Source: Verrucomicrobiota bacterium (GTDB lineage Bacteria; Verrucomicrobiota; Verrucomicrobiia; Limisphaerales; SXTU01). Taken from it: 36,392 nucleotides of DNA. Both the position numbers and the translations under genes were made by a program. Below, in pieces: positions 1 to 30,539 of the stretch (the first letter of the stretch is position 1; each line of letters begins with the position of its first letter). The stretch is from NCBI GenBank assembly GCA_016871445.1, contig VHDH01000022.1, forward strand, positions 1 through 36,392. The letters run 5' to 3'. The notes beneath the pieces are model-generated. The model was given only the letters and a program-made list of their open reading frames with translations, did no database searches and was not told the DNA's origin.

Positions 1-1
1 T

Positions 2-2224: not shown

Positions 2225-2278
2225 TTAAGTTTGAGGAAACATTGCTCCGCGTCACTGTCCAGGTACAGTCTGCCAAAA

Positions 2279-12483: not shown

Positions 12484-12662
12484 GAATCCCGATCTGTCTG
12501 TGTAGGTTCGCTGCGCGGCTGCCGGCCTGGGCTGATCCGTCGTCGCACGAAAGTGTCGTCCAACCTTTGATCGAGAAGCATTGCGTCTCCTGTCACCGCG
12601 CTCACAAGGCGAAGGCGGCTGTTCGCCTCGATGGACGCATCGACTTTGCGGCATCAGCATGA
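12480..12662 (+). pseudogene. 60-codon CXXCH stub, 5' remnant of a planctomycete-type cytochrome gene, ATGA-coupled on both sides
   Basis: The encoded peptide contains VVQPLIEKHCVSCHRAHKAK and then VRLDGRIDF. This is the beginning of a planctomycete cytochrome c (PSCyt1) domain as seen in DUF1549/DUF1553 proteins, which normally continue for 700 residues or more. Here the frame ends after 60 codons. The start overlaps the FecR-WD40 stop (ATGA 12480-12483), and its stop overlaps the DUF1592-a start (ATGA 12659-12662). The N-terminus is only weakly signal-like. It is most likely the residue of a deletion that fused a truncated gene to its neighbour's start. It may be kept as a translational bridge. 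A real 60-residue mono-heme peptide is possible but unproven. Confidence 0.6.
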
Positions 12663-15475
12663 TCGTCGAGAACAGACATGCCTGGTGCGGGGTGGCGATG
12701 ATGCTATCGATCGCCGCCCAAGCGGCGACGGCGGATCCTCTCCTCAAGGACGTGCCTTCGTTTCTCCGCAATCACTGCGGCAAATGTCACACCGGTGATA
12801 CCGTGGAGGGAGACTTTCGAATCGACTCGCTTTTGAACCCGGCGAATCGAAACACTGGTGCGCCTGATGCGCGCACCTACGAGGCAGTCTATCGTCAGCT
12901 CTCGAAGGGCAAGATGCCCCCCAAGGATGCGGCGCAACCGTCGCCGGAGGAACGCCGCTCCGTTCTGGCGGCACTCACGCCGTTTCTCGACAAGGTGATC
13001 GACGATCGTGGGAGTCGTTACGCAGGGGCATTTGCCCGGCGATTGAATCGCGAGGAACTTCAAAACGATCTGTTCGATACTTTGGGAATTGATCGCACTT
13101 TCTACAACCTGCCACCCTTTGCCGATTTGTTGCCGGAAGAAGGTCGGACCGATGGCTTTGATACCGTCGGCGCCGGGCTCGGCCAGTCGGCGCTGTTGCT
13201 CGAGCAATACCAGCAATTCGTCGACCGCCATCTCGCACTGATCACGGACGACTATTCGCCGCAGCGTTGGCGCGTCAAGTTCGGCCGCCGCTATGCCGAC
13301 AGGGAGCATTCATTCTACGAGGGGCTTGGCGAACGTGTCTTCCTCCATGAATCGATGCAAGCAGATCATTCGGTGGCGGCTTTCGACCTGACGTGGCAGC
13401 TCGAAAGCCGCGCGGGTCCGCCCCGGCGAACACCGGCGGAGGTCGCGGCGGCCGTGCGTTCGTTCTTTCCCAGGGTCTTGGAAAACAACAAACGCGACCG
13501 GTTGGAGCTGGACCGACGTGGAGGGCTGCCGCTCATCAACGAGGACAGCGTGACGATCTCGGATCGCCTTGGCAAGGTGATGGGAGATAATGGGCCGCTC
13601 ATGGTCGGTGCCACGGGGCGATACAAGGTGCGGATGCGTTGCCGGTTGCGATTCGCCGACGGGGTGGAGCCGGAACTCGTGCGCGCCCGGTATTTCAACC
13701 GCAGTCATTTTTTCGTCGGTCGTTATGACGCGCGGGATCTCGATGACGACCGATCGTACGAATGGGATGAAGATGCTTCGCGGCTTTGTTTCGAGGGGCC
13801 TGATCGGTCCAGGGTGCTGAAGCCTGGCGAATGGACGATTCTCGAGTTTGACGATTTTCGTTCGGCTGGGGAGGCCGTCTCTGCCGCGGCGAAAGCCGGT
13901 TTCACGTTCGATTTCCGTTTCGAGAGTACCGCCAAACCCAAAACGCGACAGCCCCCGCTGGAACTGCCAGCGAGGAACGGCAAGCCAGCGGTCGTGCCGC
14001 CGCGCGAGGAAGTCGAGGCCTACTACCCGTACCTTGTGGACGTGGACTACCTGGAAGTCGAGGGCCCTTATTCGCTGGTCAATCAGCCGTCGGCGTTGAT
14101 TCCGACTCGTCCCGCCGATGGATCGGATGCCCGCGCGACAGCCAAGGCTTGCCTGGCCAGGCTTCTTCCCCGCCTGTATCGCGGGCCGATCGCACAAGGT
14201 GATCTCGACTTGCTGTTGGGCGTCTTCGATCGCAACTTCGCGCGAACGAACGACTTCCGCAGCTCGCTGCGGTCCGCGATCTGCGGGGCCTTTCTCTCCC
14301 CCAAGCACTTGTTCGCGTCCAATGCAGCCACCGCCCGGAAGCCGGGAACGCCGCTGTCGCCCCACGACTTGGCGACCCGCCTCAGCCTGTTTCTCTGGTC
14401 TTCGACGCCAGACTCTGAATTGAGCGCTGCGGCAGATCGAGGTGAGTTGGGCGAATCCGCCGTCCTCCAGCGGCAAGTCCGACGGCTTCTCGATCACACG
14501 TACGCCTCGGAGTTGAGTGCCAATTTCACGTCCCAGTGGTTGCACCTGTACAACATCGGTCTGAATGCGCCCGACCAAGATCTGTACAACTACGACGAGT
14601 CTCTGCAGCGGGCGATGGTTCATGAACCACTCCGCTTTTTCCACGAGGTACTGCGAACCGATGGCAGCATCAGGCTGTTTCTCGACAGCGATTGGGTGAT
14701 GGTCAACGGCCGGCTGGCAGAGTTCTACAAAGCCAAGTTCACCGGCAAGGAAACCAGGAAGCCCTTCTCCTCCTGGCGCAAGATGCCGGTCGCCGGACAG
14801 TATGTCCCGAATTTCGGCGTGCGGGGGGGGCTGCTCGGGCAGGCCAGCATCCTCAAGTTGACCTCGGGAAGTATCCGCACCTCGATCGTCAGCCGGGGCA
14901 TGTTCATCCTGGAAAACATCCTTGATGATCCGCCGCCGCCGCCGCCGGAGAACGTGGGAGAGATCGCGAATGCCGTCGCGGACCTGGACCAGAAAAGCGT
15001 CCGCGAACAACTCGAGATCCATCGCCGCCGCGCGACCTGCAACGCCTGTCATCAGAAGATCGATCCCCTCGGGTTCGCCTTGGAAAGTTACGGTGCGATC
15101 GGGCAGTGGCGATCGACCGAGACGGATGGCATGAAGCCACTCGTCGTGGAAGAGATCGTTAAATCGCCGGACGGAAAAGTCGAAGTCAAGACGAAGAAAA
15201 TCGACCGGAAGGGGCATCCGGTCGATACGAAGGGCGTCGTCATGGGCGTTCCGGTCGACGGTCCAAGGGCGCTGCGCGCGTTGCTCCTGACCAAGGACGA
15301 TGTGTTCGCACGTTGTCTGGTGAGCAAGTTGATGGTCTACGGGCTGGGCCGCAGTCTTCGTCATCAGGACCAGGCGGTCATCGACCAAATCGTCGCCAAA
15401 GCGGCGAAAAACGACTATCGGTTGCGGGAAATCATCGAGCTGATCGTGCTCAGCGACAGTTTCAGAAACTATTGA
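12659..15475 (+). CDS. DUF1592-a: exported di-CXXCH DUF1587/DUF1592/DUF1588/DUF1585 protein
   Basis: 938 residues from ATG 12659, chosen because it gives a signal-like start (VAMMLSIAAQAATAD) and forms ATGA with the preceding stub. In order: an N-terminal heme-binding segment with CGKCH at residue 40; DUF1587 near 125 (RRLNREELQNDL); DUF1592 at about 565-690 (SPHDLATRLSLFLWSSTPD); DUF1588 at about 722-820, with a second site CNACH at 794 followed by QKIDPLGFALE; and DUF1585 at about 868-938 (LMVYGLGRSL, IVLSDSFRNY). A six-proline run lies in DUF1588. The two CXXCH sites suggest a periplasmic di-heme electron carrier or oxidoreductase, but no reaction is established for the family. Partners here are the lactonase-fold protein and DUF1552-a downstream. 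Confidence 0.92.
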   Translation: MIVENRHAWCGVAMMLSIAAQAATADPLLKDVPSFLRNHCGKCHTGDTVEGDFRIDSLLNPANRNTGAPDARTYEAVYRQLSKGKMPPKDAAQPSPEERRSVLAALTPFLDKVIDDRGSRYAGAFARRLNREELQNDLFDTLGIDRTFYNLPPFADLLPEEGRTDGFDTVGAGLGQSALLLEQYQQFVDRHLALITDDYSPQRWRVKFGRRYADREHSFYEGLGERVFLHESMQADHSVAAFDLTWQLESRAGPPRRTPAEVAAAVRSFFPRVLENNKRDRLELDRRGGLPLINEDSVTISDRLGKVMGDNGPLMVGATGRYKVRMRCRLRFADGVEPELVRARYFNRSHFFVGRYDARDLDDDRSYEWDEDASRLCFEGPDRSRVLKPGEWTILEFDDFRSAGEAVSAAAKAGFTFDFRFESTAKPKTRQPPLELPARNGKPAVVPPREEVEAYYPYLVDVDYLEVEGPYSLVNQPSALIPTRPADGSDARATAKACLARLLPRLYRGPIAQGDLDLLLGVFDRNFARTNDFRSSLRSAICGAFLSPKHLFASNAATARKPGTPLSPHDLATRLSLFLWSSTPDSELSAAADRGELGESAVLQRQVRRLLDHTYASELSANFTSQWLHLYNIGLNAPDQDLYNYDESLQRAMVHEPLRFFHEVLRTDGSIRLFLDSDWVMVNGRLAEFYKAKFTGKETRKPFSSWRKMPVAGQYVPNFGVRGGLLGQASILKLTSGSIRTSIVSRGMFILENILDDPPPPPPENVGEIANAVADLDQKSVREQLEIHRRRATCNACHQKIDPLGFALESYGAIGQWRSTETDGMKPLVVEEIVKSPDGKVEVKTKKIDRKGHPVDTKGVVMGVPVDGPRALRALLLTKDDVFARCLVSKLMVYGLGRSLRHQDQAVIDQIVAKAAKNDYRLREIIELIVLSDSFRNY

Positions 15476-15495
15476 CGTGAGTAGGAGGTTGCGAG

Positions 15496-16629
15496 ATGAG
15501 AGGCATCAGTTCTTGTGGTCTGGCAAACGCGGTGCGGGTTGGCCTCGCGCTAGCCATCGCCTTGCAGTGCGTGCCCGGCCGTGCCGTGGGGACTGAGCCT
15601 GCCGCACAGGGCGACAGTGTGACGTTCGCGTATTTCTCGCGGAGCAATTTCTCGCGGGGCAAAATACAGGGCATCAGTGTCTGTCGCCTGTCTTCCGACG
15701 ACGGTGCTCTAACGCCGGTCGTCGAGCAGCCGCTGGAAAGCCCCGGTCCCCTGGCCGTGGACACCCAGAAGCGACGGCTCTACGCGGTCAGCTATCCCGA
15801 CAAAATTCATACCTATGACATCGATGCAGGCTCCGGGACCTTGAAATCGTTGGCGGAAGTCCAGTTGCCGGGACGCCCGGAATACCTCGCGCTCGATCGC
15901 CGCGGCCGGTATCTGTTGGCCGCGATGTACCATCAGAAACAGGTCATCGTGTGTCCTCTTGACAACCAGGGGCGTCCGCAGATCGATCAATTGCAGGTGC
16001 TCGATTCCGGCCTCCGGCCGCACGCCATTCTCAGCGACCGGCACGACAAGTTCGTCTATGTTCCCTGTGCCGGCGAGATCTGGCAGTATGCGTGGAACGA
16101 AAACGGCAAGGGGCTGGCGGCCCAGGCGGTGGCCAAGCACAAGGCCCCCAAGGACTCCCGGCCGCGGCACCTTTGGTTTCACCCCGGAAAGGACTGGCTG
16201 TACGTCGTCAACGAGTCCAGTCGGTCGCTGACGTTCTATCAGGTCGATCCCGACACCGGCGGGCTCCGCGCCATTCAAACCTTGTTGACCGTTCCCGAAG
16301 GCGTACTGAAAGGCAGCGGCGCGGACATTCACGTCACGCCGGACGGCCGTTTTATCTATGCGTCCACCCGAGAACATGACTCCGTCGCCGGGTACTCGAT
16401 TGACCAAAAGTCGGGCGAACTTCTGGCCTTGGGACAGGTTCCGACGGCACGCGGGCCACGTGATTTCGCCATCGACCCCAGCGGGCGATTTCTGGTGGCC
16501 GGAGGCACCGGTGGCAACGTCGTCGTTCATGCCATCGATCAAAAGACCGGCCAAACGACAATGAAGCACCGTTATGAGGTCATGGGGCCGAACTGGGTCG
16601 AAATCGTCAATTTTCCGCAGAAGCGCTGA
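15496..16629 (+). CDS. secreted lactonase-family beta-propeller (Pgl/YbhE-type fold)
   Basis: 377 residues preceded by a strong Shine-Dalgarno AGGAGG at 15483-15488, one of the clearest in the window, which fixes ATG 15496. A signal peptide (GLALAIALQCVPGRAVG) comes first. Seven-bladed propeller motifs follow: PLAVDTQKRRLYAVSY, PEYLALDRRGRYLLAAMY, PRHLWFHPGKDWLYVVNE, ADIHVTPDGRFIYAST and PRDFAIDPSGRFLVAGG. These match the lactonase family that includes 6-phosphogluconolactonase and muconate cycloisomerase-like members. The exported location makes a pentose-phosphate role unlikely. Sitting between DUF1592-a and DUF1552-a, 20 bp after the former, it probably acts in the same periplasmic process, perhaps on a lactone or as a binding propeller. 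Confidence 0.88.
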   Translation: MRGISSCGLANAVRVGLALAIALQCVPGRAVGTEPAAQGDSVTFAYFSRSNFSRGKIQGISVCRLSSDDGALTPVVEQPLESPGPLAVDTQKRRLYAVSYPDKIHTYDIDAGSGTLKSLAEVQLPGRPEYLALDRRGRYLLAAMYHQKQVIVCPLDNQGRPQIDQLQVLDSGLRPHAILSDRHDKFVYVPCAGEIWQYAWNENGKGLAAQAVAKHKAPKDSRPRHLWFHPGKDWLYVVNESSRSLTFYQVDPDTGGLRAIQTLLTVPEGVLKGSGADIHVTPDGRFIYASTREHDSVAGYSIDQKSGELLALGQVPTARGPRDFAIDPSGRFLVAGGTGGNVVVHAIDQKTGQTTMKHRYEVMGPNWVEIVNFPQKR

Positions 16630-16671
16630 GGTTGGAAGTAATCGTCATTTTCAGGAAAGTGAGCCAACGCC

Positions 16672-17958
16672 ATGAGAAATCAGATTAATCGTCGAACCTG
16701 CCTGCGAGGCACGTGTGCCCTGCTCGGTCTGCCCTTGCTCGAGGCGATGCGGCCCCGTCTGCTTGCCAATGACCAAACGGCAAAGGCCAATGTGCCGCGG
16801 CCGCGGCTGCTGTTCATCGACGAGATCGGCAACGGCGTGGACAACGTGCGCTGGTATCCGACGAAGCTCGGTCGCGATTGGGAGATGACGGAAACGCTGC
16901 GTCCGCTGGAGCCGTTTCGCGACCACATGACCGTCCTGTCGGGGCTGCGGCAGACCTACGACGACAACGGGCATCTCGCAGCCGACACGTTTCTGACGGG
17001 CGGCAAGGCGGCGAGCAACACCGTGTCGGTCGACCAAGTCGCAGCCGAGCATCTTGGGAAAGACGTGCAGTTTCCTTCCCTGGTGCTCGGTCCGGGTGGG
17101 ACTGGCACGGTTAAGTGGTCGTCGACCCTTTCCTACGATCGCAAGGGCCGGCCGATCCCGTCGATCAGCGACGCCAGCGCCCTATTTCAAAAGCTGTTTG
17201 TCGCCCCGACGGGCGCGGCCGTTCGCGAGGCCGAAGCGCGGATCAGTCGCAACGAGAGCATTCTCGATGGTCTGGAAGCACAGACCGTAGCACTGCGGAA
17301 GTCGATTTCGGCGGAAGATGCCCGCCAGGTGGACGCCTATCTGGACGCCGTTCGGGAAATGGAACGCCAGATCGCCCGAGACCGTGCGTGGTTGCAGAAG
17401 GCGCCGCCCGACGTTGACAAGGCCGCGTTCGCGGCGGCCGAAAAGCAGGGCCGCCAGCCCGCCATGTACGAACTCATGCGGATGGCACTGCTCACGGAGC
17501 GGTCTCGGGTCGGCACCTTGATGTTTACGTCCGGGCTGGGATCTTCACACGGGGACACCCATCACAAGGGACAGCAGTCCAGCCTCGACAAGGTTGCGGC
17601 CCGCGATCTGAAAGCCGTCAAGCTGTTTGCGAATTTCGTCGCCTCGATGCAGGCGACGCCAGTGGGGGACGGCACGCTTCTCGACTACACGTGCATCCTG
17701 TTCGGCAGCCACATGAACAACGGCACGGGCTGGGCACAGGGCTTCCCCTTCAAGAGCACGTTCGATTCGCACTCGGTTCGCAATCTGCCGATCCTGCTGG
17801 TCGGCGGTCGCAAGCTGGGCGTCAAGCAGGGCCAACATCTCCTGTTCCCGGACGAGAAGACCACCCTGAGTCAGTTGTTTGTCGAGATGCTCAAGATTGG
17901 TGGCATTCCGAAGCCGACCTTCAACGGCCTGGATCGGGGAATTGCGGGATTAAGCTGA
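16672..17958 (+). CDS. DUF1552-a: Tat-exported DUF1552 protein
   Basis: 428 residues with an N-terminal Tat-like signal (INRRTCLRGTCALLGLPLLE). The body shows the DUF1552 pattern: an early FIDEIGNGVDNVRWYP region, then RDHMTVLSGLRQTYDDNGH and a helical middle (VDAYLDAVREMERQIARD). MRMALLTERSRVGTLMFTSG and SSHGDTHHKG follow, and the tail has NLPILLVGGRKLGVKQGQH. No enzymatic activity is known for the family. The position directly after a di-CXXCH DUF1592 protein is the standard pairing in planctomycete and verrucomicrobial genomes. The first cassette ends here; the next 874 bp are non-coding. Confidence 0.9.
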   Translation: MRNQINRRTCLRGTCALLGLPLLEAMRPRLLANDQTAKANVPRPRLLFIDEIGNGVDNVRWYPTKLGRDWEMTETLRPLEPFRDHMTVLSGLRQTYDDNGHLAADTFLTGGKAASNTVSVDQVAAEHLGKDVQFPSLVLGPGGTGTVKWSSTLSYDRKGRPIPSISDASALFQKLFVAPTGAAVREAEARISRNESILDGLEAQTVALRKSISAEDARQVDAYLDAVREMERQIARDRAWLQKAPPDVDKAAFAAAEKQGRQPAMYELMRMALLTERSRVGTLMFTSGLGSSHGDTHHKGQQSSLDKVAARDLKAVKLFANFVASMQATPVGDGTLLDYTCILFGSHMNNGTGWAQGFPFKSTFDSHSVRNLPILLVGGRKLGVKQGQHLLFPDEKTTLSQLFVEMLKIGGIPKPTFNGLDRGIAGLS

Positions 17959-18039
17959 CCCTCCCCGCGAAATCGGCCGGCATGTCATTGAGGGGTGCGA
18001 CCAGGTCTGGGTGAGTTCAAACATGAGCCCGGATCGGAG

Positions 18040-18079
18040 GCACGCCAGAGGCGTGCGATACGGCAGGCAGGATGCCTGC
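18040..18079. repeat. two adjacent REP-like palindromes, each 7-bp stem with 3-nt loop
   Basis: GCACGCC-AGA-GGCGTGC at 18040-18056 and GCAGGCA-GGA-TGCCTGC at 18063-18079 are perfect hairpins separated by 6 bp. A third hairpin of the same geometry, CAACTGC-TCC-GCAGTTG, lies at 18608-18624. The regular geometry resembles REP-type extragenic palindromes. Confidence 0.8.
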
Positions 18080-18153
18080 GCTACGGCCCTCCCACGTCTC
18101 GCGCGCGAACGCGGCCCATCGTAGCAGCGCGGGCGTCCTCGCCTGCCGTATCG
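18056..18153. repeat. 13-bp perfect inverted repeat, 72-bp spacer
   Basis: CGATACGGCAGGC at 18056-18068 is the exact reverse complement of GCCTGCCGTATCG at 18141-18153. The left arm runs into the second REP-like palindrome. No coding sequence lies between the arms. Confidence 0.75.
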
Positions 18154-18192
18154 CTGGCTTCCCCCTCGGCTTCGCTCGGGGCCTTGAGCTTG

Positions 18193-18408
18193 TCGAAACG
18201 GCAGCCGGCCTCGGGGCGATCCTCTGAGGAAGAATCCCTCAATTCAACCGAGAAAAAGCGATTGGGTCCACGAAACACACGGAAAACACTAAACTGGAGG
18301 AATTTGCACGGATCGAGCGCGGCACCCATGGGGTGAAGACGCTCCCTTACCCAATGCGCTCATTTCGTGTCTTTTGTGTGTTTCGTGGACATCCAACTGC
18401 CGTTTCGA
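18193..18408. repeat. nested inverted repeats (12-bp outer, 15-bp inner)
   Basis: Outer arms are TCGAAACGGCAG (18193-18204) and CTGCCGTTTCGA (18397-18408). Inner arms are GTCCACGAAACACAC (18266-18280) and GTGTGTTTCGTGGAC (18376-18390). All are perfect. The concentric arrangement over about 216 bp looks like a small non-autonomous repeat element; no transposase is present. Confidence 0.75.
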
Positions 18409-18544
18409 GGTCCACGGCACCGCGGAATCGCGCGGGCGCGGTGCGGCCAATCGGGACAGAGGGAAGGATGCCCGCGGTCCCCACAGCCAGGATGGCCGTG
18501 TCACGCTGTGCCGCTGCGCCGGATGCGGACGCGATTCCGATCAC

Positions 18545-18689
18545 CCTAAAAACGGCAGTTGAGCGGTTTTTCAGAGAAAAATGAGCCGTGGACGGGTGAG
18601 CAATTTTCAACTGCTCCGCAGTTGGCACTTTCCAGAGTAAAACACCCTGTTTTTGGCCTCGAAAAAACAGGGTCAACTGCCGTTTTAGG
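18545..18689. repeat. about 145-bp palindromic element with imperfect terminal inverted repeats
   Basis: CCTAAAAACGGCAGTTGA (18545-18562) is complementary to TCAACTGCCGTTTTAGG (18673-18689) apart from one extra A. Inside are the 7-bp palindrome at 18608-18624 and an 11-bp hairpin at 18644-18673. The arm core AACGGCAG recurs in the neighbouring element at 18193-18408, so the two belong to one repeat family. Confidence 0.7.
18644..18673. terminator. 11-bp hairpin, terminator-like
   Basis: ACCCTGTTTTT (18644-18654) pairs perfectly with AAAAACAGGGT (18663-18673) around an 8-nt loop. The stem is AT-rich at its tip and no T-run follows directly on the plus strand. It may stop transcription from either side or just be the centre of the surrounding palindromic element. 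Confidence 0.4.
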
Positions 18690-18707
18690 ATCACACGCAT
18701 TTTTTTT

Positions 18708-18760
18708 GGCAGGATTGGCGGCGGGAAAGGATTAGTTTGTGGAAATCTTGCCGCATGACA
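18708..18760 (+). promoter_or_regulatory. leader module, copy B (before DUF1592-b)
   Basis: GGCAGGATT-N12-GGATTAG-N5-GGAAAT-N8-ATGACA with exactly the spacing of the copy before the ECF sigma gene (10059-10111). Its ATG at 18755 is in frame with DUF1592-b but lies 78 bp upstream of the likely signal-peptide start at 18833. The first codons after both ATGs are also similar (MTxxS). Either a shared ECF-type promoter/leader or the 5' relic of a second sigma gene. Confidence 0.4.
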
Positions 18761-18832
18761 GACTTCTCCAGCCCCGACCCAGCGCGACGGTCCTCTTCCG
18801 CACGGCCTCAGCGCGAAGCCCGGCGATTTTTC

Positions 18833-21028
18833 ATGAAGTTCCCCCATTTCGCGAAAACCCCTGTGTTCCTTATGGCGACTGCTTTGGCGGGATCCGGCGT
18901 GCTGGCGCAGGCAGCGGCCCCGGCGGATCTCAAGTTCGCGAGCGCGGCGGAGAGCAAGGCGGAATACGAGCGGGTGGTGGTCCCTTTCTTCGCCAAGCAC
19001 TGCAACGATTGCCACAACCAAAAGGAGTTGGAAGGCGATCTCGATCTGGCCGTGCTGGAGTTTGACATGAAGGCCTCCACGAGCGGTGCCCGGTGGGCCA
19101 CGCTGGTCGATCTGCTGACCAAGGGCGAGATGCCGCCGAAAAAGCGGACGCGGCCCATGCCGGAGAGCGTGGCCGCGGTCATTCGCTGGGCCAACGCGGA
19201 GGCCAAGCGGGCCAACCGGCACTTCACCCGCCGCGAAGCCTACGCGAACGGCAACAAGGTGCCGCACGAGTCACTCTTCAATCCGAAGGACATCCCGCCG
19301 TTCGCCGCCGACCCGCAGATTCGCCGCATCAGCCCGGAGATTTATGCCGCGTTCGTCGCCGAGATGAAGGCAAAATCCCGCCTCGGCCAGCCGTTCTCGC
19401 CGAGCGGGCGGACCACCTTCAAGGACATGGGCACGCCGAAGGTGGATGAACCCGTGACGGCGCAGCTCCTGCAAAACGCCCTGTCGATCGTCGAGAGCCG
19501 GACGGCCCACAAGCTCGAGGGCGACAAGGTGGTCGGGAATCTGACGAAGGAGTTCTCCGCGTTGTTTCATCCCGTGACGCCGCCTTCGGAGCCCCAGATC
19601 GAAGCGGCCATCGTTCATCAGTTCAACCAGATCCTCCGCCGGACGCCGACCGACGCCGAGAAAACGCGGTTCGTCGCGCTCATGAAGAAGAACATCGCCG
19701 ATGCCGGACAGACCGTGGGCGTCCGCTACACGCTGGCGACGGTGTTGATGCTGCCCGAGGCAATCTTCCGCATGGAAGTCGGCAGCGGCACGCCCGATGC
19801 GAAAGGCCGCATCCGGCTGGCCCCGCGCGAGATCGCTTTTGCGCTCGCCTTCGCGCTGACCGACAAGCGCCCCGATGCCGCGCTGCTCACGGCGGCGGCG
19901 GCGGGCGAACTGGACACCGACGCGGGCGTGGCAAAACAGGTGCAACGGCTGCTCGATGACCCCAAGACGGAGAAGACCCGCGTCCTGCGTTTCTTCCGCG
20001 AATACTTCGGCTACGACAAGGCGACCGACGTCTTCAAGGAGGCGAACGGCGGCGGTTCGGCCGTCGATCATCCCGGCCACGAGCCGCGCGCGCTGGTCGA
20101 GGACACCGACCGGCTGGTGCAATTGATTTTGGAGCAGGACAAGGACGTGCTGAAGGAGTTGCTGACGACCACCAAGAGCTTTGTCGCCTACAAGACCGCG
20201 GCGGACTCCAAGAAGAAGATCGCGGAAGCGAAGGCGAAGTTCGAAGCGGACAGGCAGAAAGACCCGGCGAAGTTCAAGGACAAGTTGTTCAAGCCGCAGC
20301 AAAAATTGATCTACGAGTCCTACGGGCTCACCGACTTCCCGGATGTGCAGCCGGTCGAGCTGCCAGCCGACCAGCGGGCCGGCATCCTCACGCAGCCCTC
20401 GTGGCTCGTGGCCAACTCGACCACCTTCGACAACCATGCCATCCACCGCGGCAAATGGATTCGCGAGCGGTTGCTGGGCAACGTGGTGCCGGACATCCCG
20501 ATCACCGTCGATGCGCAGCTCCCGATCGCGCCCGAGAAGACGCTCCGCACGCGGATGGCGGTCACGCAGGAAGCCTACTGCTGGAAGTGCCACCAGTTGA
20601 TGAACGACCTCGCCTACCCGTTCGAGCAATTCGATCACTTTGGCCGCTATCGCGCGGCGGAGATCGTGCAGGACCTGGAAGCCACCGCCTTGAATGTGGA
20701 TGGCAAGGGCAAACCGAAGGGACCGGTGATGAAAGGCGCTCCGCTCGACATCAGCGGTCTGATTGCGCACGTAGGCGACAAGTCGCTTGAAGGGCCGATC
20801 AAGAACCCGATTGATTATATGAAAAAGCTGGCGGGTTCGAAACGCGTGGAGCAGGTCTTCGTGCGCCACGCCTTCCGGTTCTGGGTCGCCCGCAACGAAG
20901 CTCCCGGCGACGCGGCCAGCCTGCAAGCCACCCACAAAGCCTACAGCGAGAGCGGCGGCAGCATGAAAGCGCTGATCACCGCCCTGCTGACCAGCGAATC
21001 ATTTCTCTACCGCATCGCAGCCAAGTAA
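18833..21028 (+). CDS. DUF1592-b: exported di-CXXCH DUF1592/DUF1588/DUF1585 protein
   Basis: 731 residues from ATG 18833, which begins a clean signal peptide (MKFPHFAKTPVFLMATALAG, cleavage near VLAQA). The frame is open upstream to 18737, including ATG 18755 at the end of leader module B, so a longer form is possible. The N-terminal heme site is CNDCH at residue 57, followed by KGEMPPKKRTRP. The middle corresponds to DUF1592 (LAPREIAFALAFALTDKRPD; LRFFREYFGY). DUF1588 carries CWKCH at residue 583 (HQLMNDLAYPFEQFD) and DUF1585 ends at LTSESFLYRIAAK. A lysine-rich, helical insertion (about residues 455-500, KKKIAEAKAKFEADRQKD) is absent from copies a and c. Copy b is the shortest of the three. 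It is paired with DUF1552-b, 36 bp downstream. Confidence 0.9.
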   Translation: MKFPHFAKTPVFLMATALAGSGVLAQAAAPADLKFASAAESKAEYERVVVPFFAKHCNDCHNQKELEGDLDLAVLEFDMKASTSGARWATLVDLLTKGEMPPKKRTRPMPESVAAVIRWANAEAKRANRHFTRREAYANGNKVPHESLFNPKDIPPFAADPQIRRISPEIYAAFVAEMKAKSRLGQPFSPSGRTTFKDMGTPKVDEPVTAQLLQNALSIVESRTAHKLEGDKVVGNLTKEFSALFHPVTPPSEPQIEAAIVHQFNQILRRTPTDAEKTRFVALMKKNIADAGQTVGVRYTLATVLMLPEAIFRMEVGSGTPDAKGRIRLAPREIAFALAFALTDKRPDAALLTAAAAGELDTDAGVAKQVQRLLDDPKTEKTRVLRFFREYFGYDKATDVFKEANGGGSAVDHPGHEPRALVEDTDRLVQLILEQDKDVLKELLTTTKSFVAYKTAADSKKKIAEAKAKFEADRQKDPAKFKDKLFKPQQKLIYESYGLTDFPDVQPVELPADQRAGILTQPSWLVANSTTFDNHAIHRGKWIRERLLGNVVPDIPITVDAQLPIAPEKTLRTRMAVTQEAYCWKCHQLMNDLAYPFEQFDHFGRYRAAEIVQDLEATALNVDGKGKPKGPVMKGAPLDISGLIAHVGDKSLEGPIKNPIDYMKKLAGSKRVEQVFVRHAFRFWVARNEAPGDAASLQATHKAYSESGGSMKALITALLTSESFLYRIAAK

Positions 21029-21064
21029 TCCTCAACCAATCCGCTAATTCATTAGTAAACTCCC

Positions 21065-22450: not shown

Positions 22451-22466
22451 CATCGCAGACTGCCGA

Positions 22467-22502
22467 CGCCGTTTGCAGCCTGACAACAAGCTGTAAACGG
22501 CG
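22467..22502. terminator. 13-bp stem-loop after DUF1552-b
   Basis: CGCCGTTTGCAGC (22467-22479) pairs with GCTGTAAACGGCG (22490-22502) around a 10-nt loop, with a single G-T pair. No T-run follows, so it may be an intrinsic terminator of weak type, an mRNA processing or stabilising hairpin, or a repeat. Confidence 0.5.
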
Positions 22503-22514
22503 TACTAAATTAAG

Positions 22515-22543
22515 GGTAGAACGATAGTAAAGGTGGAACGATG
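22515..22543 (+). repeat. duplicated translation-initiation segment
   Basis: GGTAGAACGATA (22515-22526) is followed 17 bp on by GGTGGAACGATG (22532-22543), whose ATG starts the next gene. Ten of 12 bases match. The upstream copy has ATA where the downstream copy has the start ATG, so it looks like a tandem duplication whose first start is inactive. Confidence 0.45.
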
Positions 22544-23428: not shown

Positions 23429-23446
23429 CTAACTGAAAGAGATCGC

Positions 23447-24157: not shown

Positions 24158-24159
24158 CG

Positions 24160-26739
24160 ATGCCACGATGGTCCACCCTTGGATTTGCCTGCCTGACGCT
24201 GCTGACGGCCGGATCGGCCATCGCGCAGGCAAAGGTGGAGTCCACCTACGCCGACACCCTTGCGCCTTTCCTGAAGCGGCATTGCGTCGAATGTCACGGG
24301 GCCGAGAAATCCAAGGGCGGTGTTCGCTTCGACGGGCCGATGCCGGATCTGATCGACGTGAAACTTGCGGAGCAGTGGCTTACCGCGAAGCGGATGATGG
24401 CGCAGGGCGAGATGCCGCCCGAAGGGAAGCCGCGACCGACAGCCGACGAATTGACGAACGTGCTCGCCTGGATCGACGACGCGGCGGCGCGAGCGGCAAC
24501 CATCACGCGGGGCGGGATTGGGCGCCGGGCTTTGCGGCGGTTGACGCCTCGCGAATACGTGAGCACCGCGATGGACGTGCTGGGGCTGTCTTTCCCTCAC
24601 TTTGCCCCGGACTTGAGCAAACGGCTCCCCACGGATACCGCGGCCGACGGCTTCAGCAATGACAGCAATCAGCAATCGACGCAGCCGCTGTTGCTGCGGC
24701 GGAGCCTCGACTTGGCGGAGCAGCTCGTGGATGTCGCGCTGCCGGTAGAACCGCATCCGAGCCCGATCCGCTACGAAGTGGATCTTCGCGAATTCGTCGC
24801 CAAGGCCACCGATAAGCCCTCCAAGCCGAAGAGCATCTTCGTTGCCTACCGCATCGATGTTCCCGCCGCGAGCGACGGCCAACCATCGGCTTCGTTGAGC
24901 CTGGTTGGCCGCTGGTCCGGTCCCAATAACGGGCGCCGGCCGCAGGCGGTGACGCGGCTGGATGCGAAGCGTGGCATTCTCCTTGCACCCAACCCGGTCA
25001 TTATCGGTAATCCGATGGAATGTTTGATGTTGAAGTTGCCGCAGGTTCCCAACCAGGGCGTGCTGCGATTGCGCGCCAGAGCCGGAGCCAGCATTCCGGC
25101 CGGGGAAACCGCGCCGGTGTTGCGGTTGAGCATCGCGCGGCAATTTACGATTGTGCCCATCGGCGAGATCGTCGTCACCGCGCCCGCCGACGGGCCCGCG
25201 GAATATGTGCTCGAAGTGCCGCTCGCGCTGGTTGAGGCCGATTGGAAAGGAATCCAGCGCGACGGGCATCTAGAGCTGCAAATCGATAACGCCGCGGCAC
25301 TCGTGGCGCCGACGCCGCTCAAGCCGGATGACAAACGCAAGGAAAGCGAGATTCCCACGCCGGCCCGCAACGAGTTGATCGTGAGTTCGCTGAGTGCCGA
25401 AGTGGTGGAAGCTCCGTCGCGGTCGGCAATCCTATTAGCCGCCGCGAAGGAGGGCGAGACGGAGCGAGAACGAGCGCGACGATTTCTCCAAAGCTTTCTG
25501 TCGCGAGCGTTTCGCCGGCCGGTGAGTGAGAGCGAAGTGGGCTCGTACCTGGGCCTCTTTGATGTCGAGCGGAAGCGGGGCGTCTCGTTCCTCGCCGCGT
25601 ACAAAGCGTCGCTCACCGCCGCGTTGATTTCGCCGCAGATGTTTTACCTGATCGAGCCGAAGGACAAGGAGCAACGTCCTTTGACGGCTTGGGAACTCGC
25701 CTCCCGGCTGTCCTATCTGGCGTGGGGAACATCGCCGGACGAAGAGCTTCGCGCCCGCGCCGCCGACGGCAGCCTGCTGCGCGAGGACGAGCTGCGGCGT
25801 CAGCTTGTCCGACTGCTCGACGATCCCCGGAGCTATGCGCTTTGCCGGGAGTTTGCCCGGCAGTGGCTGGACCTTGATTCGGTGCTGCATATCGACCAGG
25901 CAACCGTCCTGGCTCACCTGACGATCGACCGGAAGGAAGACATTCCCTGGTACGAAGCCGTGCTGCGGCGGGACTTGGTGGAGGAATCCCCGCGACTTCT
26001 CGAGGAGTTGTTGCGAAAGAACCGGCCCGTCGAGTCGCTCGGCAGTTGCGAAATCGTGGTCATCAACGACCGCCTCGCCCGGTTCTACGGCATCGACGGT
26101 GTATCAGGGCACCAATTCCGCGCCGTGCCCGCACCGGCGGATCGTCGTGGCGGACTGCTGACGCAAGCGGGCTGCATCGCGGCTGGGTCGCATGGCCGGG
26201 AGCGGTCGGAGATTCTCCGCGGCGTCTATTTGATCGAACGCATCCTCGGCATCGACATCCCCACGCCGCCGGGCAACGTGCAGCCGCTTGATGTGCAACT
26301 GAACATCGACAAGAACCTCCGCAGGTTGTCGCCGCGCGAGCATGTGGAAACTCATTCCAGCGTCAACACGTGCGCAGTCTGCCACCAGCGGATCGATCCG
26401 CTGGGGTTCGTCTGGGACCAGTACGACATGTTCGGCCGGCTGCGTCGCGACAAGGAGGGCAAGCTGGTCGTGGCCAGGACCAGCGGAAAACTGCCCGACA
26501 AGACCCCGTTCGCCGACATCGACGAGTTTCGCAAACGGCTGATCGAGCCGTCCTCGACCACGCCTCGTTTCGCCGATGCATTTAACCGGCGACTCTACGC
26601 CTACGTGCTCGGCCGCAGTCTCGACCACGGCGACGACAAACATTTGAGTTCCATTCAATCGACCACCACAAAAACCGAGGGCGGCCTGCGCGATCTGTTG
26701 ACCGCGATGGTGCTCTCCGAACCGTTCCGGAAAAAGTAG
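24160..26739 (+). CDS. DUF1592-c: exported di-CXXCH DUF1587/1595/1592/1588/1585 protein
   Basis: 859 residues from ATG 24160, preceded by AGGGAGA 8 bp upstream; the frame is open further upstream but lies inside the previous gene. Signal peptide: FACLTLLTAGSAIAQA. The N-terminal heme site is CVECH at residue 42 (HGAEKSKGGVRFDGP). Then come DUF1587 near 126 (RLTPREYVSTAMDVL), a beta-rich linker, DUF1595 near 434 (RARRFLQSFLSRAFRRPVSE), DUF1592 near 507 (TAWELASRLSYLAWGTSPD) and DUF1588 near 661 (RRGGLLTQAGCIAAGS). The second heme site is CAVCH at 738, followed by QRIDPLGFVWDQYD, and DUF1585 closes the protein (YVLGRSLDHGDDK, MVLSEPFRKK). This is the most canonical of the three copies. It is followed by a TIGR03067-like gene and two DUF1552 genes. 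Confidence 0.93.
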   Translation: MPRWSTLGFACLTLLTAGSAIAQAKVESTYADTLAPFLKRHCVECHGAEKSKGGVRFDGPMPDLIDVKLAEQWLTAKRMMAQGEMPPEGKPRPTADELTNVLAWIDDAAARAATITRGGIGRRALRRLTPREYVSTAMDVLGLSFPHFAPDLSKRLPTDTAADGFSNDSNQQSTQPLLLRRSLDLAEQLVDVALPVEPHPSPIRYEVDLREFVAKATDKPSKPKSIFVAYRIDVPAASDGQPSASLSLVGRWSGPNNGRRPQAVTRLDAKRGILLAPNPVIIGNPMECLMLKLPQVPNQGVLRLRARAGASIPAGETAPVLRLSIARQFTIVPIGEIVVTAPADGPAEYVLEVPLALVEADWKGIQRDGHLELQIDNAAALVAPTPLKPDDKRKESEIPTPARNELIVSSLSAEVVEAPSRSAILLAAAKEGETERERARRFLQSFLSRAFRRPVSESEVGSYLGLFDVERKRGVSFLAAYKASLTAALISPQMFYLIEPKDKEQRPLTAWELASRLSYLAWGTSPDEELRARAADGSLLREDELRRQLVRLLDDPRSYALCREFARQWLDLDSVLHIDQATVLAHLTIDRKEDIPWYEAVLRRDLVEESPRLLEELLRKNRPVESLGSCEIVVINDRLARFYGIDGVSGHQFRAVPAPADRRGGLLTQAGCIAAGSHGRERSEILRGVYLIERILGIDIPTPPGNVQPLDVQLNIDKNLRRLSPREHVETHSSVNTCAVCHQRIDPLGFVWDQYDMFGRLRRDKEGKLVVARTSGKLPDKTPFADIDEFRKRLIEPSSTTPRFADAFNRRLYAYVLGRSLDHGDDKHLSSIQSTTTKTEGGLRDLLTAMVLSEPFRKK

Positions 26740-26750
26740 AAGGATTTAAC

Positions 26751-27716
26751 ATGACCTCATTTCGCGCATTCGTTTTCCCGGCACTGGCCGTCGTGATTCA
26801 CGCTTCGGCCACCGTGGCCGCCGAGCCGACATTCCCCAAGGAGACCCACGGCGACTGGCATGTCTTGCTGGGCGTCCCAGCGTCGAACCTCGGCATCACG
26901 GATGAGGATACGGGCTTGATCGGCGGAAAGGTGAAGATCGATGCGGATCGCCTCACACTGGCTTCACCCGGAGAACAGCCGGAAACCTTGCTGACCGCCA
27001 ACTGCAAGTTGCTCGCGGAACAGCGCGTCGACGAGAAGAACAGGCCACTACCGGGCAAGGAAGCGGAAGCCAGGCTCTCGGGCAGAGTGACCGGCGACCG
27101 GCGACTCCTCTGGGCGACCTCTGAGGCGGGGCTCTTACACGTGAAGATTCTGACTTCAGACCCGCCGAAAACGACGGGGCCTTTCAAAGGTTTCTATCTG
27201 TCAAACCAGTTTGGCGGCGGCCCCGAAACGCTCTACCTGGTGCTGCGCCGACAAGCAGTTCCAGCGCGATCAAAACACGAAAAGGCGGCCGATGCCAAAC
27301 GGATTCTGGGCGATTGGAAGGCGGTCGCCCATTACGACGACGCTTTCCTGAAGGGACCGGGCCTCGCCGGGAAGCGAACGTTTTCAATCACTGCGGAGCG
27401 AATCAACGAACTGGACGCCAAAGGTCAGTTCGTTCGGCCGCCGGTCGGTTTCTGGGGGACTTACCAAATTGCCGAACCTGTCGGGGCGCTCGGTGCGATT
27501 GACCTCCAGTTGGAAAGCTGGGCCGGTGGCGGCGCTGGCCTGATGGGCCGCACCCCGAGCCTCCTGGCCTTCTACGGCGATGACCTGCTCTACATCGCCT
27601 ACAACGAAACGGATCGCCGCACCGAGGACAAGCGAACCCGCTGCGAGCGCCTTCGTTCCGACGGCAACCACAACCTGTTCATCCTGGTACGCCAGCCAAC
27701 CGAAGGGAAAAAATAA
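26751..27716 (+). CDS. secreted two-domain TIGR03067-like protein (b)
   Basis: 321 residues. The signal peptide MTSFRAFVFPALAVV...SATVAA shares its nucleotide sequence, including the ribosome-binding region, with the start of the PQQ gene at 31764. The mature part repeats the two-half design of the protein at 22541: HGDWHVLLGVPASNLGI, then ILGDWKAVAHYDDAFLKGPG, VGFWGTYQIAEPVGALGAID, SLLAFYGDDLLYIAYNE and HNLFILVRQ at the end. AGGA stands 7 bp before the ATG. No function is known. The gene lies between DUF1592-c and DUF1552-c with gaps of 11 and 1 bp, so tight co-expression is expected. Confidence 0.7.
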   Translation: MTSFRAFVFPALAVVIHASATVAAEPTFPKETHGDWHVLLGVPASNLGITDEDTGLIGGKVKIDADRLTLASPGEQPETLLTANCKLLAEQRVDEKNRPLPGKEAEARLSGRVTGDRRLLWATSEAGLLHVKILTSDPPKTTGPFKGFYLSNQFGGGPETLYLVLRRQAVPARSKHEKAADAKRILGDWKAVAHYDDAFLKGPGLAGKRTFSITAERINELDAKGQFVRPPVGFWGTYQIAEPVGALGAIDLQLESWAGGGAGLMGRTPSLLAFYGDDLLYIAYNETDRRTEDKRTRCERLRSDGNHNLFILVRQPTEGKK

Positions 27717-27779
27717 AATGAATCATCTACGAACAACACGGCGACAGTTCCTATCCGCGAGTGGGGTCTGCCTCGCACT
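27716..27779 (+). repeat. 64-bp direct repeat, copy 1 (start of DUF1552-c)
   Basis: This stretch, covering two bases before the ATG and the first 62 coding bases of DUF1552-c, is identical to 29191-29254 at the start of DUF1552-d, including every third codon position. Identity falls away directly afterwards. Confidence 0.95.
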
Positions 27780-29067
27780 ACCATGGCTCGAACGTTTCGC
27801 CTCGGCGAATGACGCTGTGAAGCCGCCCAACCGCGCCGTTTTTCTGTTCGTTCCCAATGGCGTGAACATGTGGGAGTGGCATCCCGCGACCACCGGCAAG
27901 GACTACGAACTGACACCGCCGATGCGGAATCTGGCCGGGCTGCGCGATCGCTTCACGGCGCTCTCCGGCCTGCAACACATCAAGGCCGGAGGCGGTCACC
28001 AGGAAGCCGCACTGTGGCTGACGGGGAATCCGAACTACGCCAGCAAGAAAGAGATTTACGTCACGCCGAACACGATCTCCATCGATCAGCACATCGCGCG
28101 CGCGATGGGCCGGCAAACGCGCTGGCCGAGCATGGTCGTTGGCGCCGACGGCGGCCAGTACACCTGCTCGTTCAATGCCGACGGCCGACCGGTGCTGGCC
28201 GATTTCGACCTCGCTTCCATTTTCGCGGAACTGGTCGGCGCCGATCCGAAAGGTCGGTTGCCGCAGCGGGGCAGCATCCTCGACCTGGTCGCGGATCAGG
28301 CAACCAGGCTGCGTCGCGAACTGGGCAAGAGTGACGAGCGGAAACTCGACGAATACGTCGAGTCGATTCGCGCGGTGGAAAAACGCGTGCAAGCGGACAT
28401 CGCCTGGAAGTCGTTGCTCCGGCGGGATTCGATCCAGGAAGATCGCTTGAACCTGCGGGCCGATCCGCACAACACGCCCGACGGCGTGGACTTTGTGGAT
28501 ACGATGCTGGAACTGATTTACCTGGCCCTCCGCATCGACTGCACGCGTGTCGTGGCTTTCTCCGCGTACCGTTCGAGCCAGTCCTGTGTGCTCAAGCATC
28601 TCGGTTTTGACGTCCACAACGAAGGTCACAGTAGCGGCGACGCCCGGCCCGAGGATAAGCCAAAGCAGTTCGCGAACATCAGCAAGGCCGACGCCTGGTG
28701 GACCCAGCGCCTGGCCCGCTTCCTCGATCGACTGCGGACGACTCGCGAAGGCGAGCATGACATGCTTCGGCACACTACCGTCCTGTACGGCAGCGGGATG
28801 TCGTGGCCGGCGACCCATCGCAACCACAACCTGCCGATCCTGTTGGCCGGCGGCGAGGGACTGGGCTTTGCGCACGGCCGGCACATCGCCTTCAACGGCC
28901 AGCGAAAGGACGTTCCGAACGACAAACGCGAGCACCTCGACAGCCCCAAACTCGGCCCCGACGCCGTGAGCATGTCCGACCTGCTGCGCACCATCTCCGA
29001 ACGAATCGGCGTGCCCGCGGAAGGCTTTGGCGAGAGTCGCCGCGTTTTGGCAGAGTTGCTCGCCTGA
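27718..29067 (+). CDS. DUF1552-c: Tat-exported DUF1552 protein
   Basis: 449 residues from ATG 27718, preceded by GAAGGG; the start lies 1 bp after the previous stop. A textbook Tat signal opens the protein (TTRRQFLSASGVCLALPWLE). Family blocks are RAVFLFVPNGVNMWEWHPA, LRDRFTALSGLQHIKAGGGH, NTISIDQHIARAMGRQTRWP, GSILDLVADQATRLRRELGK, LDEYVESIRAVEKRVQAD, MLELIYLALRIDCTRVVAFS, VLYGSGMSWPATHRNHNLP and ILLAGGEGLGFAHGRH. It is a tandem paralogue of DUF1552-d, and the two are far more alike than either is to copies a or b. Partner: DUF1592-c. Confidence 0.93.
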   Translation: MNHLRTTRRQFLSASGVCLALPWLERFASANDAVKPPNRAVFLFVPNGVNMWEWHPATTGKDYELTPPMRNLAGLRDRFTALSGLQHIKAGGGHQEAALWLTGNPNYASKKEIYVTPNTISIDQHIARAMGRQTRWPSMVVGADGGQYTCSFNADGRPVLADFDLASIFAELVGADPKGRLPQRGSILDLVADQATRLRRELGKSDERKLDEYVESIRAVEKRVQADIAWKSLLRRDSIQEDRLNLRADPHNTPDGVDFVDTMLELIYLALRIDCTRVVAFSAYRSSQSCVLKHLGFDVHNEGHSSGDARPEDKPKQFANISKADAWWTQRLARFLDRLRTTREGEHDMLRHTTVLYGSGMSWPATHRNHNLPILLAGGEGLGFAHGRHIAFNGQRKDVPNDKREHLDSPKLGPDAVSMSDLLRTISERIGVPAEGFGESRRVLAELLA

Positions 29068-29190
29068 GTGACCGGGAGCATGATCACTAATCCGGCAAAC
29101 AAACAGATCGCCGTCTCCATCTTATTCATAACACCGCAAAACCGAGCGGCTCGCGCTGCTCCGCTACTTGCCCACTGAAACGATAAATCG

Positions 29191-29254
29191 AAATGAATCA
29201 TCTACGAACAACACGGCGACAGTTCCTATCCGCGAGTGGGGTCTGCCTCGCACT
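29191..29254 (+). repeat. 64-bp direct repeat, copy 2 (start of DUF1552-d)
   Basis: Identical over 64 bp to 27716-27779. The 125-bp gap before this copy shows no ORF and no similarity to the sequence before copy 1. Confidence 0.95.
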
Positions 29255-30539
29255 GCCGTGGCTCGAAGCGTTCGCGGACGCCGCGCCAGCCGCACAGGCC
29301 CCGAAGCGGGCCGTGTTCGTGTTCGTGCCCAACGGTGTGAATATGTGGGAGTGGCATCCAGCGACGACCGGCAAGGACTATGAACTCACTCCGCCGCTGA
29401 AGAATCTGGCCGATTGTCGCAAGCGCTTCACCGTGTTCTCCGGCCTGCAACACAAGGCCATCCCGGGGCACGGCGAACTCGCCGTGTGGCTGACAGCCAA
29501 CGCGAATTACACGGCTGGCAAGGGTGCTGTGACGAAGAGCACGATCTCGATCGACCAGCACATCGCCGAAGCCGTCGGCCGGCAGACCCGCTGGCCCAGC
29601 ATGGTAGTCGGCGCCACGGGCGGTCGGCGGACAATCTCCTTCGACCGCCAGGGCGAGCCGGTACTGGCCGACCAGGATCTGTCCGCGATCTTCGCGGAAC
29701 TTGTCGGCGCCCACGGGCGCGAGAAACTTCCGCGCCGGGCGAGCATTCTGGATCTCGTTTCGTCGCAGGCGGCCGCCCTGCGGCGTGAGTTGGGTAAAAG
29801 CGACGAGCGAAAGCTCGAGGAGTATCTCGACTCGGTCCGCACCGTCGAGAAGCGGGTGCAGGCCGACATCGCCTGGCAGGCGACAGCCAGAGCCGAGGTC
29901 ATCGACAAGGACCGGCTGCGACTCCAGTCCGACCCCTACGCACCGGCCAATTACGCGGAGTATATCGACACGATGTTCGAGCTAATCTATCTGGCACTGC
30001 GGACCGACAGCACGCGGGTGGTCTCCTTCGCGACGACCGAATCCGAAGGGGGCGGCCCGATCAAGAACCTGCCGTGCGGCAACTGGCACAATGCAGGCCA
30101 CAACACGGGTGACGCACCGCCCGAGCAAAAGCCGAAAGATTACGCGACTCTCAGCGAGTACGACGCCTGGTGGACCGCCCGCCTGGCGAAATTCCTCGCC
30201 CGGCTGCAAGGGACAACCGAGGGCGGGCACGACATGCTGCACCACACCGCAGTCCTCTACGGCAGCGGAATGTCGTGGCCGGCGGCCCACCGGAGCGACA
30301 ACTTGCCGCTGCTGCTCGCGGGCGGCGAGGGACTGCGATTCGCGCAAGGCCGGCACGTCGCGTTCAACAACCAAGCGCCGGTGAACGCCGCCGTCGGCAA
30401 GGCGCCACCCGTGAACAAAGACTTCGGCAAGAACCCGGCGTGCGTCTCGGACCTGCTTCGCACCATCGCCGAACGAATGGACGTGCCAGCTCCCGGATTC
30501 GGCGAGAGCCGACGCACGCTGGATGAGTTAATGGCTTGA
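29193..30539 (+). CDS. DUF1552-d: Tat-exported DUF1552 protein, tandem paralogue of c
   Basis: 448 residues. The Tat signal is encoded by the same 62 bases as in copy c. The mature protein keeps the same blocks (RAVFVFVPNGVNMWEWHPA, RKRFTVFSGLQHKAIPGHG, NYTAGKG, STISIDQHIAEAVGRQTRWP, MFELIYLALRTDSTRVVSF, NLPLLLAGGEGLRFAQGRH) but has diverged over its whole length. It also carries an insertion near residue 395 (APVNAAVGKAPPVNKDFGKN). It starts 125 bp after copy c. Keeping two copies beside a single DUF1592 suggests different specificity or a hetero-complex; this is inference. The possible ATG 30539 of the next gene overlaps its stop. Confidence 0.93.
   Translation: MNHLRTTRRQFLSASGVCLALPWLEAFADAAPAAQAPKRAVFVFVPNGVNMWEWHPATTGKDYELTPPLKNLADCRKRFTVFSGLQHKAIPGHGELAVWLTANANYTAGKGAVTKSTISIDQHIAEAVGRQTRWPSMVVGATGGRRTISFDRQGEPVLADQDLSAIFAELVGAHGREKLPRRASILDLVSSQAAALRRELGKSDERKLEEYLDSVRTVEKRVQADIAWQATARAEVIDKDRLRLQSDPYAPANYAEYIDTMFELIYLALRTDSTRVVSFATTESEGGGPIKNLPCGNWHNAGHNTGDAPPEQKPKDYATLSEYDAWWTARLAKFLARLQGTTEGGHDMLHHTAVLYGSGMSWPAAHRSDNLPLLLAGGEGLRFAQGRHVAFNNQAPVNAAVGKAPPVNKDFGKNPACVSDLLRTIAERMDVPAPGFGESRRTLDELMA

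Follow-up and report, generated by a model that had tools for sequence, protein, structure and literature searches.

The contig analysed here carries three gene cassettes in which a putative exported two-heme cytochrome of the DUF1592 family is paired with one or more Tat-exported proteins of the DUF1552 family. The best reading of such cassettes, which is held with moderate confidence, is that they are paralogous glycan-directed redox/hydrolytic modules, each made of an exported cytochrome and a near-constant Tat partner.

Gene content and organization of the contig

The window (36,392 nucleotides) is the entire contig C22 (VHDH01000022.1) of a 3.49-Mb draft genome (Verrucomicrobiota, SXTU01). 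The following gene list was checked by ORF, Pfam, and NCBIfam results.

9684..9800, + strand: 5′ remnant of a DUF1552 gene, 117 nt, covering its start and Tat signal
10106..10645, + strand: ECF sigma factor, TIGR02989 family (NCBIfam)
10642..12483, + strand: FecR domain and WD40 repeats, with a 4-bp overlap with the sigma gene
12659..15475, + strand: DUF1592-a, PSCyt1-PSD3-(insert of ~280 aa)-PSD5-PSD4-PSCyt3-PSD2, two CXXCH sites
15496..16629, + strand: lactonase family protein with a 7-bladed beta-propeller (PF10282), located between DUF1592-a and DUF1552-a
16672..17958, + strand: DUF1552-a, Tat signal (PF07586)
17959..18832: 874-bp spacer between cassette a and cassettes b and c, containing four inverted repeats
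~18833..21028, + strand: DUF1592-b, two CXXCH sites, without PSD3 and without a complete CBM-like insert
21065..22450, + strand: DUF1552-b, Tat signal, divergent (~21% to other DUF1552; PF07586)
22541..23428, + strand: first TIGR03067 protein, above the cut-off
23447..24157, + strand: DUF1349 protein (33.8 bits, cut-off 32.4)
24160..26739, + strand: DUF1592-c, cytochrome domain, PSD3, likely CBM-like beta-sandwich (~201-417), PSD5-PSD4-PSCyt3-PSD2
26751..27716, + strand: second TIGR03067-like protein, with similarity to the other two TIGR03067-like proteins only
27718..29067, + strand: DUF1552-c, Tat signal (PF07586), modelled; alkaline phosphatase superfamily fold predicted
29193..30539, + strand: DUF1552-d, tandem duplicate of DUF1552-c (64%; PF07586)
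30596..31555, + strand: third TIGR03067-like protein, below the cut-off
31764..33677, + strand: PQQ_2-type beta-propeller protein, possible extension of the b/c gene run
33832..35640, + strand: exported protein with a Tat-like signal, no family match, heparinase-like by eye only

Because the intergenic gaps from DUF1592-b through the third TIGR03067-like gene are 1-125 bp, this run looks like a single transcription unit, and it possibly extends into the PQQ_2 propeller gene and the gene of the exported protein with no family match (gaps of 208 and 154 bp). Given the four inverted repeats in the 874-bp spacer, one pair of which is 28 nt long and 86% complementary, cassette a and cassettes b/c need not share one transcript.

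Three further observations concern the contig and its genome. The DUF1552 remnant at 9684-9800, just 5′ of the sigma gene, matches the DUF1552 gene of contig C77 (L200) at 87.5% identity, which points to the loss of a fourth cassette or to recombination. The contig starts with a tandem repeat (window positions 1-150, unit of ~60 nt). In the genome as a whole (G000, 3.5 Mb), ~67 DUF1501, ~52 DUF1553, and ~55 sulfatase matches were counted, along with one TatC match and two matches to a cytochrome c assembly family.

DUF1592 proteins are putative two-heme cytochromes

DUF1592-a, -b, and -c all matched PSD4, PSCyt3, and PSD2 above the Pfam cut-offs, and all three also matched PSD5. PSD3 (DUF1587) was present between the cytochrome regions of DUF1592-a and -c and absent from DUF1592-b. 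Each of the three proteins has two CXXCH sites, as the first-pass annotation had pointed out, and in an alignment with 82 relatives heme 1 (C42/C45/H46) was kept in 81 and heme 2 (C738/C741/H742) in all 82. A methionine in the MPP motif after heme 1 (M85), a candidate distal ligand, was found in 82/82, and a His ten residues ahead of the second half of heme 2 in 80/82. Since the CXXCH sites are near-invariant across these relatives, they are not there by chance, and the proteins can be regarded as putative exported c-type cytochromes with two hemes.

The three proteins are only 23-29% identical to one another. By its domain make-up, DUF1592-b appears to be a different sub-type, with no PSD3 and an insert region of 64 residues. 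The closest DUF1592-b relative in the genome (L201, G000:C128, positions 1413-5338) lies in a locus of reversed order, DUF1552 then DUF1592. For DUF1592-c, the closest relatives in ten congeners reached ~31-41% identity over the aligned part and none was above this; the cluster in the window is therefore not a conserved island. No relatives were found when the DUF1592 profile was searched against the sequences of solved structures, and the N-terminal cytochrome profile recovered only generic c-type cytochromes from PDB chains.

A likely CBM-like insert between the heme regions

DUF1592-c was modelled with AlphaFold2 using 82 aligned sequences (pLDDT 83.6, pTM 0.87); this model and that of DUF1552-c (below) are protein chains without heme or metal, and one protein was modelled per family. 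In the model, residues ~201-417, which lie between PSD3 and PSD5, fold as a beta-sandwich. The best match to the sandwich was the CBM6 of an agarase (VIA Z 11.5, rmsd 3.3 over 130 residues), and further VIA matches were to CBM36, CBM35, and CBM4. Middling Z values can arise from a common structural arrangement. On the basis of the model, the insert is likely a CBM-like sandwich. The VIA matches cover the sandwich alone and do not extend to the helical PSD5/PSD4/PSCyt3/PSD2 part, and Foldseek with the whole model gave no match at E ≤ 0.001.

In 76 of the 82 DUF1592 relatives, the insert between the PSD3 and PSD5 positions measures 110 aa or more, and in one congener CBM60 (xylan-binding) passed the Pfam cut-off in the same region (32.6 against 28.2). 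Within the window, the insert of DUF1592-a was recognised by length alone.

DUF1592 and DUF1552 genes are paired across phyla

A set of 80 named loci was collected from GTDB genomes with the DUF1552 profile alone, and 77 of them held enough upstream DNA. At 63 of these 77 informative loci, a DUF1592 gene lay directly upstream of DUF1552 on the same strand, with a median frame gap of −26 bp. Most of the named loci belong to Planctomycetota and Verrucomicrobiota, and others to Acidobacteriota, Armatimonadota, and Poribacteria; there are also a few bins with other labels, which may be misassigned. The same pair was found on proteobacterial plasmids (Pseudoalteromonas, Sphingobium, and Novosphingobium). 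Across 20 genomes of the order, per-genome DUF1552/DUF1592 counts ran from 0/0 to 32/32 (r = 0.996, totals 254 and 256).

Within single genomes, the distance matrices of the DUF1592 and DUF1552 paralogues mirrored each other in two congeners (G010, r = 0.985; G005, r = 0.86; both p = 0.0002). Because paralogues were compared within a genome, speciation cannot explain the mirrored distances. In the window's own genome the correlation (r = 0.69) rests on pair b and falls to r = 0.28 (p = 0.16) when that pair is left out, as the other pairs are all ~70% diverged. Mirrored distances are a sign of co-inheritance, not of contact, and linkage alone also predicts them. Taken with the conserved sites and the adjacency, they bear out, at the level of sequence, the earlier proposal of putative exported heme-type cytochromes in cognate pairs that form parallel paralogous modules.

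Several loci vary the arrangement. At L120 (6953-7882), DUF1552 occurs without DUF1592, and its immediate upstream neighbour encodes a cytochrome c of a different kind, with two domains. On a plasmid of Planctomyces sp. SH-PL62 (L264, 3164-9411), DUF1592 takes the form of two separate genes ahead of DUF1552, one for PSCyt1-PSD3 and one for PSD5-PSD4-PSCyt3-PSD2; the DUF1592-DUF1552 pair there adjoins a 3-keto-disaccharide hydrolase gene, a single case. At 14 of the 80 named loci, in Planctomycetota and Verrucomicrobiota alike (L128, L131, L132, L134, L137, L138, L140, L147, L154, L160, L161, L164, L171, and L180), the gene that immediately follows DUF1552 in the same orientation encodes a HEAT-repeat protein, which may be a third component in one sub-type.

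DUF1552 has a predicted alkaline phosphatase superfamily fold

DUF1552-a, -b, -c, and -d all matched PF07586, and the twin Arg of the Tat signal was kept in 114/114 DUF1552 sequences, so that their description as Tat-exported DUF1552 proteins (one each for cassettes a and b, two for c) stands. The cassettes had also been called divergent. This is true of a, b, and c, whose DUF1552 proteins are 20-32% identical; DUF1552-c and -d are the tandem duplicates.

DUF1552-c was modelled with AlphaFold2 using 114 relatives (pLDDT 85.5, pTM 0.88). The best VIA match to the model was PafA (Z 17.7, rmsd 3.8 over 271 residues), followed by nucleotide pyrophosphatases (NPPs) and sulfatases, with 439 chains at Z ≥ 8. 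The top Foldseek match was choline sulfatase (prob 1.00). DUF1552-c is thus predicted to have the alkaline phosphatase superfamily fold. In HHalign comparisons, DUF1552 aligned with DUF1501 at 98% (E 2.8e-13, 364 columns; 99.2% in global mode), while a control against a phosphodiesterase alignment gave 0.2%; profile alignment with sulfatases covered the C-terminal region only (42.6%). By these profile comparisons, DUF1552 and DUF1501 are distant homologues, and DUF1552 is not a member of DUF1501. The DUF1552 profile found no relatives among the sequences of solved structures.

Four histidines are conserved in DUF1552 (DUF1552-c numbering): H300 in 114/114, H304 in 113/114, H94 in 112/114, and H367 in 111/114; D123 and D189 are also among the conserved polar residues. 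By order and spacing, we take H300-x-x-x-H304 (the HXXSH of the Pfam name) to stand at the place of the superfamily D-x-x-x-H metal ligands, H367 at the place of the third His ligand, and H94 near the nucleophile position. No clear counterparts of the superfamily Asp ligands were seen in the DUF1552 sequence. If the residue mapping holds, the metal site of DUF1552 would be altered and His-rich. DUF1552-c shares its predicted fold with PafA, NPPs, and sulfatases; the HXXSH(H) motif, the Tat signal, the cytochrome partner, and the lack of clear Asp-ligand counterparts in the sequence set DUF1552 apart from them.

These results bear on the earlier suggestion that DUF1552 is the redox partner of DUF1592, which loses its main support because of the fold predicted for DUF1552-c and the homology to DUF1501. 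The view of DUF1552 as an oxidoreductase that trades electrons with the hemes of DUF1592, put most strongly with H94, H300, H304, and H367 as ligands of a redox metal, is considered unlikely. It would fit the near-constant pairing with a cytochrome, the other cytochrome c upstream of DUF1552 at L120, and the conservation of all four histidines in 111-114 of 114 sequences, and Tat export would suit a cofactor loaded in the cytoplasm. The predicted fold, however, is that of a hydrolase superfamily, no known redox member was among the structure matches of DUF1552-c, and no known redox cofactor motif was seen in DUF1552.

A more specific idea, which is quite improbable at present, is that DUF1552 is an alkaline-phosphatase fold rebuilt around an all-His metal site (H300, H304, H367, and perhaps H94, with HXXSHH replacing D-x-x-x-H) that works directly with a diheme cytochrome bound to a glycan, for instance in the oxidative removal of a sugar substituent. 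No member of the alkaline phosphatase superfamily is known to us to be redox-coupled.

It is likewise doubtful that DUF1552 is simply a hydrolase of the usual sulfatase or phosphatase type whose gene accompanies that of the cytochrome, with no contact between the products and with linkage behind the mirrored divergence. The predicted fold agrees with this, as does the hydrolase-rich lifestyle indicated by the many sulfatase matches in the genome (~55), but one-to-one counts and adjacency across phyla, proteobacterial plasmids included, exceed what loose linkage would give.

Redox and glycan context

The proteobacterial plasmids place the pair beside further domains. A Pseudoalteromonas gene of 2157 aa encodes PKD, three CBM26 (starch-binding), a glucose/sorbosone dehydrogenase (GSDH) propeller, cytochrome c, and PSD3-PSD5-PSD4-PSCyt3-PSD2, and is followed after 16 bp by a DUF1552 gene. 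In Sphingobium the order is DUF1592-DUF1552-cytochrome c′-cytochrome b561, and the last two genes may provide a route to the membrane.

Among characterised proteins, Cbp2D of Cellvibrio japonicus is described as combining CBM2, a YceI-like domain, an X183 cytochrome, DUF1587, and a CXXCH-bearing X132, and as important for growth on cellulose (PMC8981238, PMC12542752). Its CjX183 domain can reduce two bacterial LPMOs in vitro (PMC8981238). Its Teredinibacter relatives (T. turnerae) have a lactonase/dehydrogenase-type propeller, but published tests of their X183 domains showed no LPMO reduction (PMC10916295). The earlier statement that no biochemical role is known was therefore too strong, given the cellulose growth and the X183 LPMO reduction reported in PMC8981238 and PMC12542752.

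Cbp2D, TERTU_2913, and TERTU_3803 look like the same kind of cytochrome as DUF1592, a likeness drawn from the shared DUF1587 and the architecture. All are exported and combine a small cytochrome of the c type, bearing CXXCH and Met, with DUF1587 (in DUF1592-a and -c) and with a C-terminal block that bears a second CXXCH. Carbohydrate-binding modules occur in Cbp2D and TERTU_3803, as a CBM-like one probably does in DUF1592-c; the former proteins have CBM2, YceI-like, or X122 modules, whereas DUF1592-c has an internal sandwich. The X183 entry 7B21 was absent from the matches of the PSCyt1 profile to PDB chains at E up to 10. A DUF1552 partner is not mentioned for Cbp2D, TERTU_2913, or TERTU_3803 in the accessible text of these sources.

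The Pseudoalteromonas fusion, the Sphingobium cytochromes, and Cbp2D point to redox chemistry on carbohydrates. As we infer the working of paired glycan-directed modules, a DUF1592 cytochrome would dock on a glycan or a glycan-oxidising enzyme and take electrons from sugar oxidation, passing them to a periplasmic or membrane chain. Most DUF1592 proteins (a and c here; not b) seem to have an extra domain between the heme regions, and the DUF1592 layout resembles that of the Cbp2D-type X183-DUF1587-X132 proteins found in saprophytic bacteria. DUF1552 would fold in the cytoplasm, be exported by Tat, perhaps come into physical contact with the cytochrome, and work on that glycan too, as a metal-dependent hydrolase or transferase. 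Cassettes that have diverged would be directed at different glycans.

That DUF1592 proteins are instead electron donors to LPMOs, as proposed for Cbp2D, is very improbable here. The in vitro activity of CjX183 on two bacterial LPMOs speaks for it (PMC8981238), but the T. turnerae X183 domains failed, and no match to LPMO_10, the one LPMO family searched, was found in the window's genome and 19 relatives, which hold up to 34 DUF1592 genes. Because LPMO_10 matches are absent from these genomes, LPMO reduction is not a likely role in this clade.

Relation to described systems

The first-pass annotation had put the cluster forward as a candidate undescribed system. The DUF1592-DUF1552 pairing itself is already published: He et al. 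reported in 2017 that PSCyt3 genes usually adjoin an unknown gene family, function unknown, and that some PSCyt genes carry CBMs, and suggested a link to carbohydrate-binding modules (PMC5615132). Domains and pairing are shared with that system, for which the fold or role of the partner was not given; here the partner is predicted to be alkaline-phosphatase-like and one cytochrome insert CBM-like, both from predicted structures. The pairs of DUF1549/DUF1553 (PSCyt2/PSD1) with DUF1501 follow the same logic, an exported cytochrome and a Tat partner homologous to DUF1552, and have other cytochrome core domains than DUF1592.

A literature search naming DUF1592 and DUF1552 together gave no joint match. 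The DUF1552 fold, a CBM-like core in DUF1592, the matching one-to-one gene counts, and the link of PSCyt to X183/X132 were not found in the searched literature, which mostly excluded subscription journals, and the novelty of these four points is provisional.

Accessory genes and regulation

Neighbours were surveyed at 120 other cassette loci with single-sequence searches, which are of limited sensitivity. An ECF factor was found at 5/120 loci and the lactonase family at 2/120; a FecR homologue was found at none, nor were the TIGR03067-like, DUF1349, or PQQ proteins. Even so, these numbers differ greatly from those of the DUF1592-DUF1552 pair, and the ECF/FecR pair and the accessory genes appear to be features of the contig, not of the paired system. 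The accessory families, which had been taken as parts of the system, are not recurrent neighbours. The lactonase-fold protein was clearly matched (220 bits, Pfam), and the DUF1349-like protein passed its cut-off, though barely. The three proteins described as two-domain TIGR03067-like are mutually homologous over almost their whole length, but two matched TIGR03067 stretches were seen in the first protein only; it alone was above the cut-off, the third scored 28.2 against 40.15, and the second had no match.

Two other associations were considered and rejected. Three cassettes had a sulfatase gene nearby on the same contig, which is not above a rough expectation from ~55 per genome, and PSCyt2 and DUF1501 were near the cassettes at 12/80 and 11/80 named loci, about the density expectation.

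Placing all cassettes under one ECF/FecR system had been an inference, and the 874-bp spacer and the survey counts (ECF 5/120, FecR 0/120) argue against it. The ECF sigma factor is a candidate regulator of cassette a only. There is a precedent in R. baltica, in which the PSCyt/PSD domains were first identified (cited in PMC2754498): a stress-induced ECF factor is proposed there to control a PSD1/PSCyt2 gene (PMC2754498). With this precedent and the ECF-FecR genes directly upstream of cassette a, the cluster could be read as an ECF/FecR-controlled stress or envelope system that is not catabolic. Such a role is hardly probable, however, in view of the 874-bp spacer ahead of cassette b and of the rarity of ECF factors and absence of FecR homologues among the 120 other cassette loci.

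Implications

The family-wide pairing and the unexpected fold predicted for the partner are of more interest than this contig itself. In Planctomycetota and Verrucomicrobiota, the number of cytochrome-partner cassettes in a genome can reach the tens. The predicted DUF1552 fold, the near-strict one-to-one pairing, and the proposed link to Cbp2D make the role of these cassettes testable with few proteins. Should an all-His, redox-coupled DUF1552 prove true, it would help to explain the large PSCyt/DUF1501/DUF1552 gene sets of Planctomycetota and Verrucomicrobiota. If the reading as paired glycan-directed modules is true, part of the polysaccharide turnover in aquatic and soil environments would use a redox route new to these phyla.
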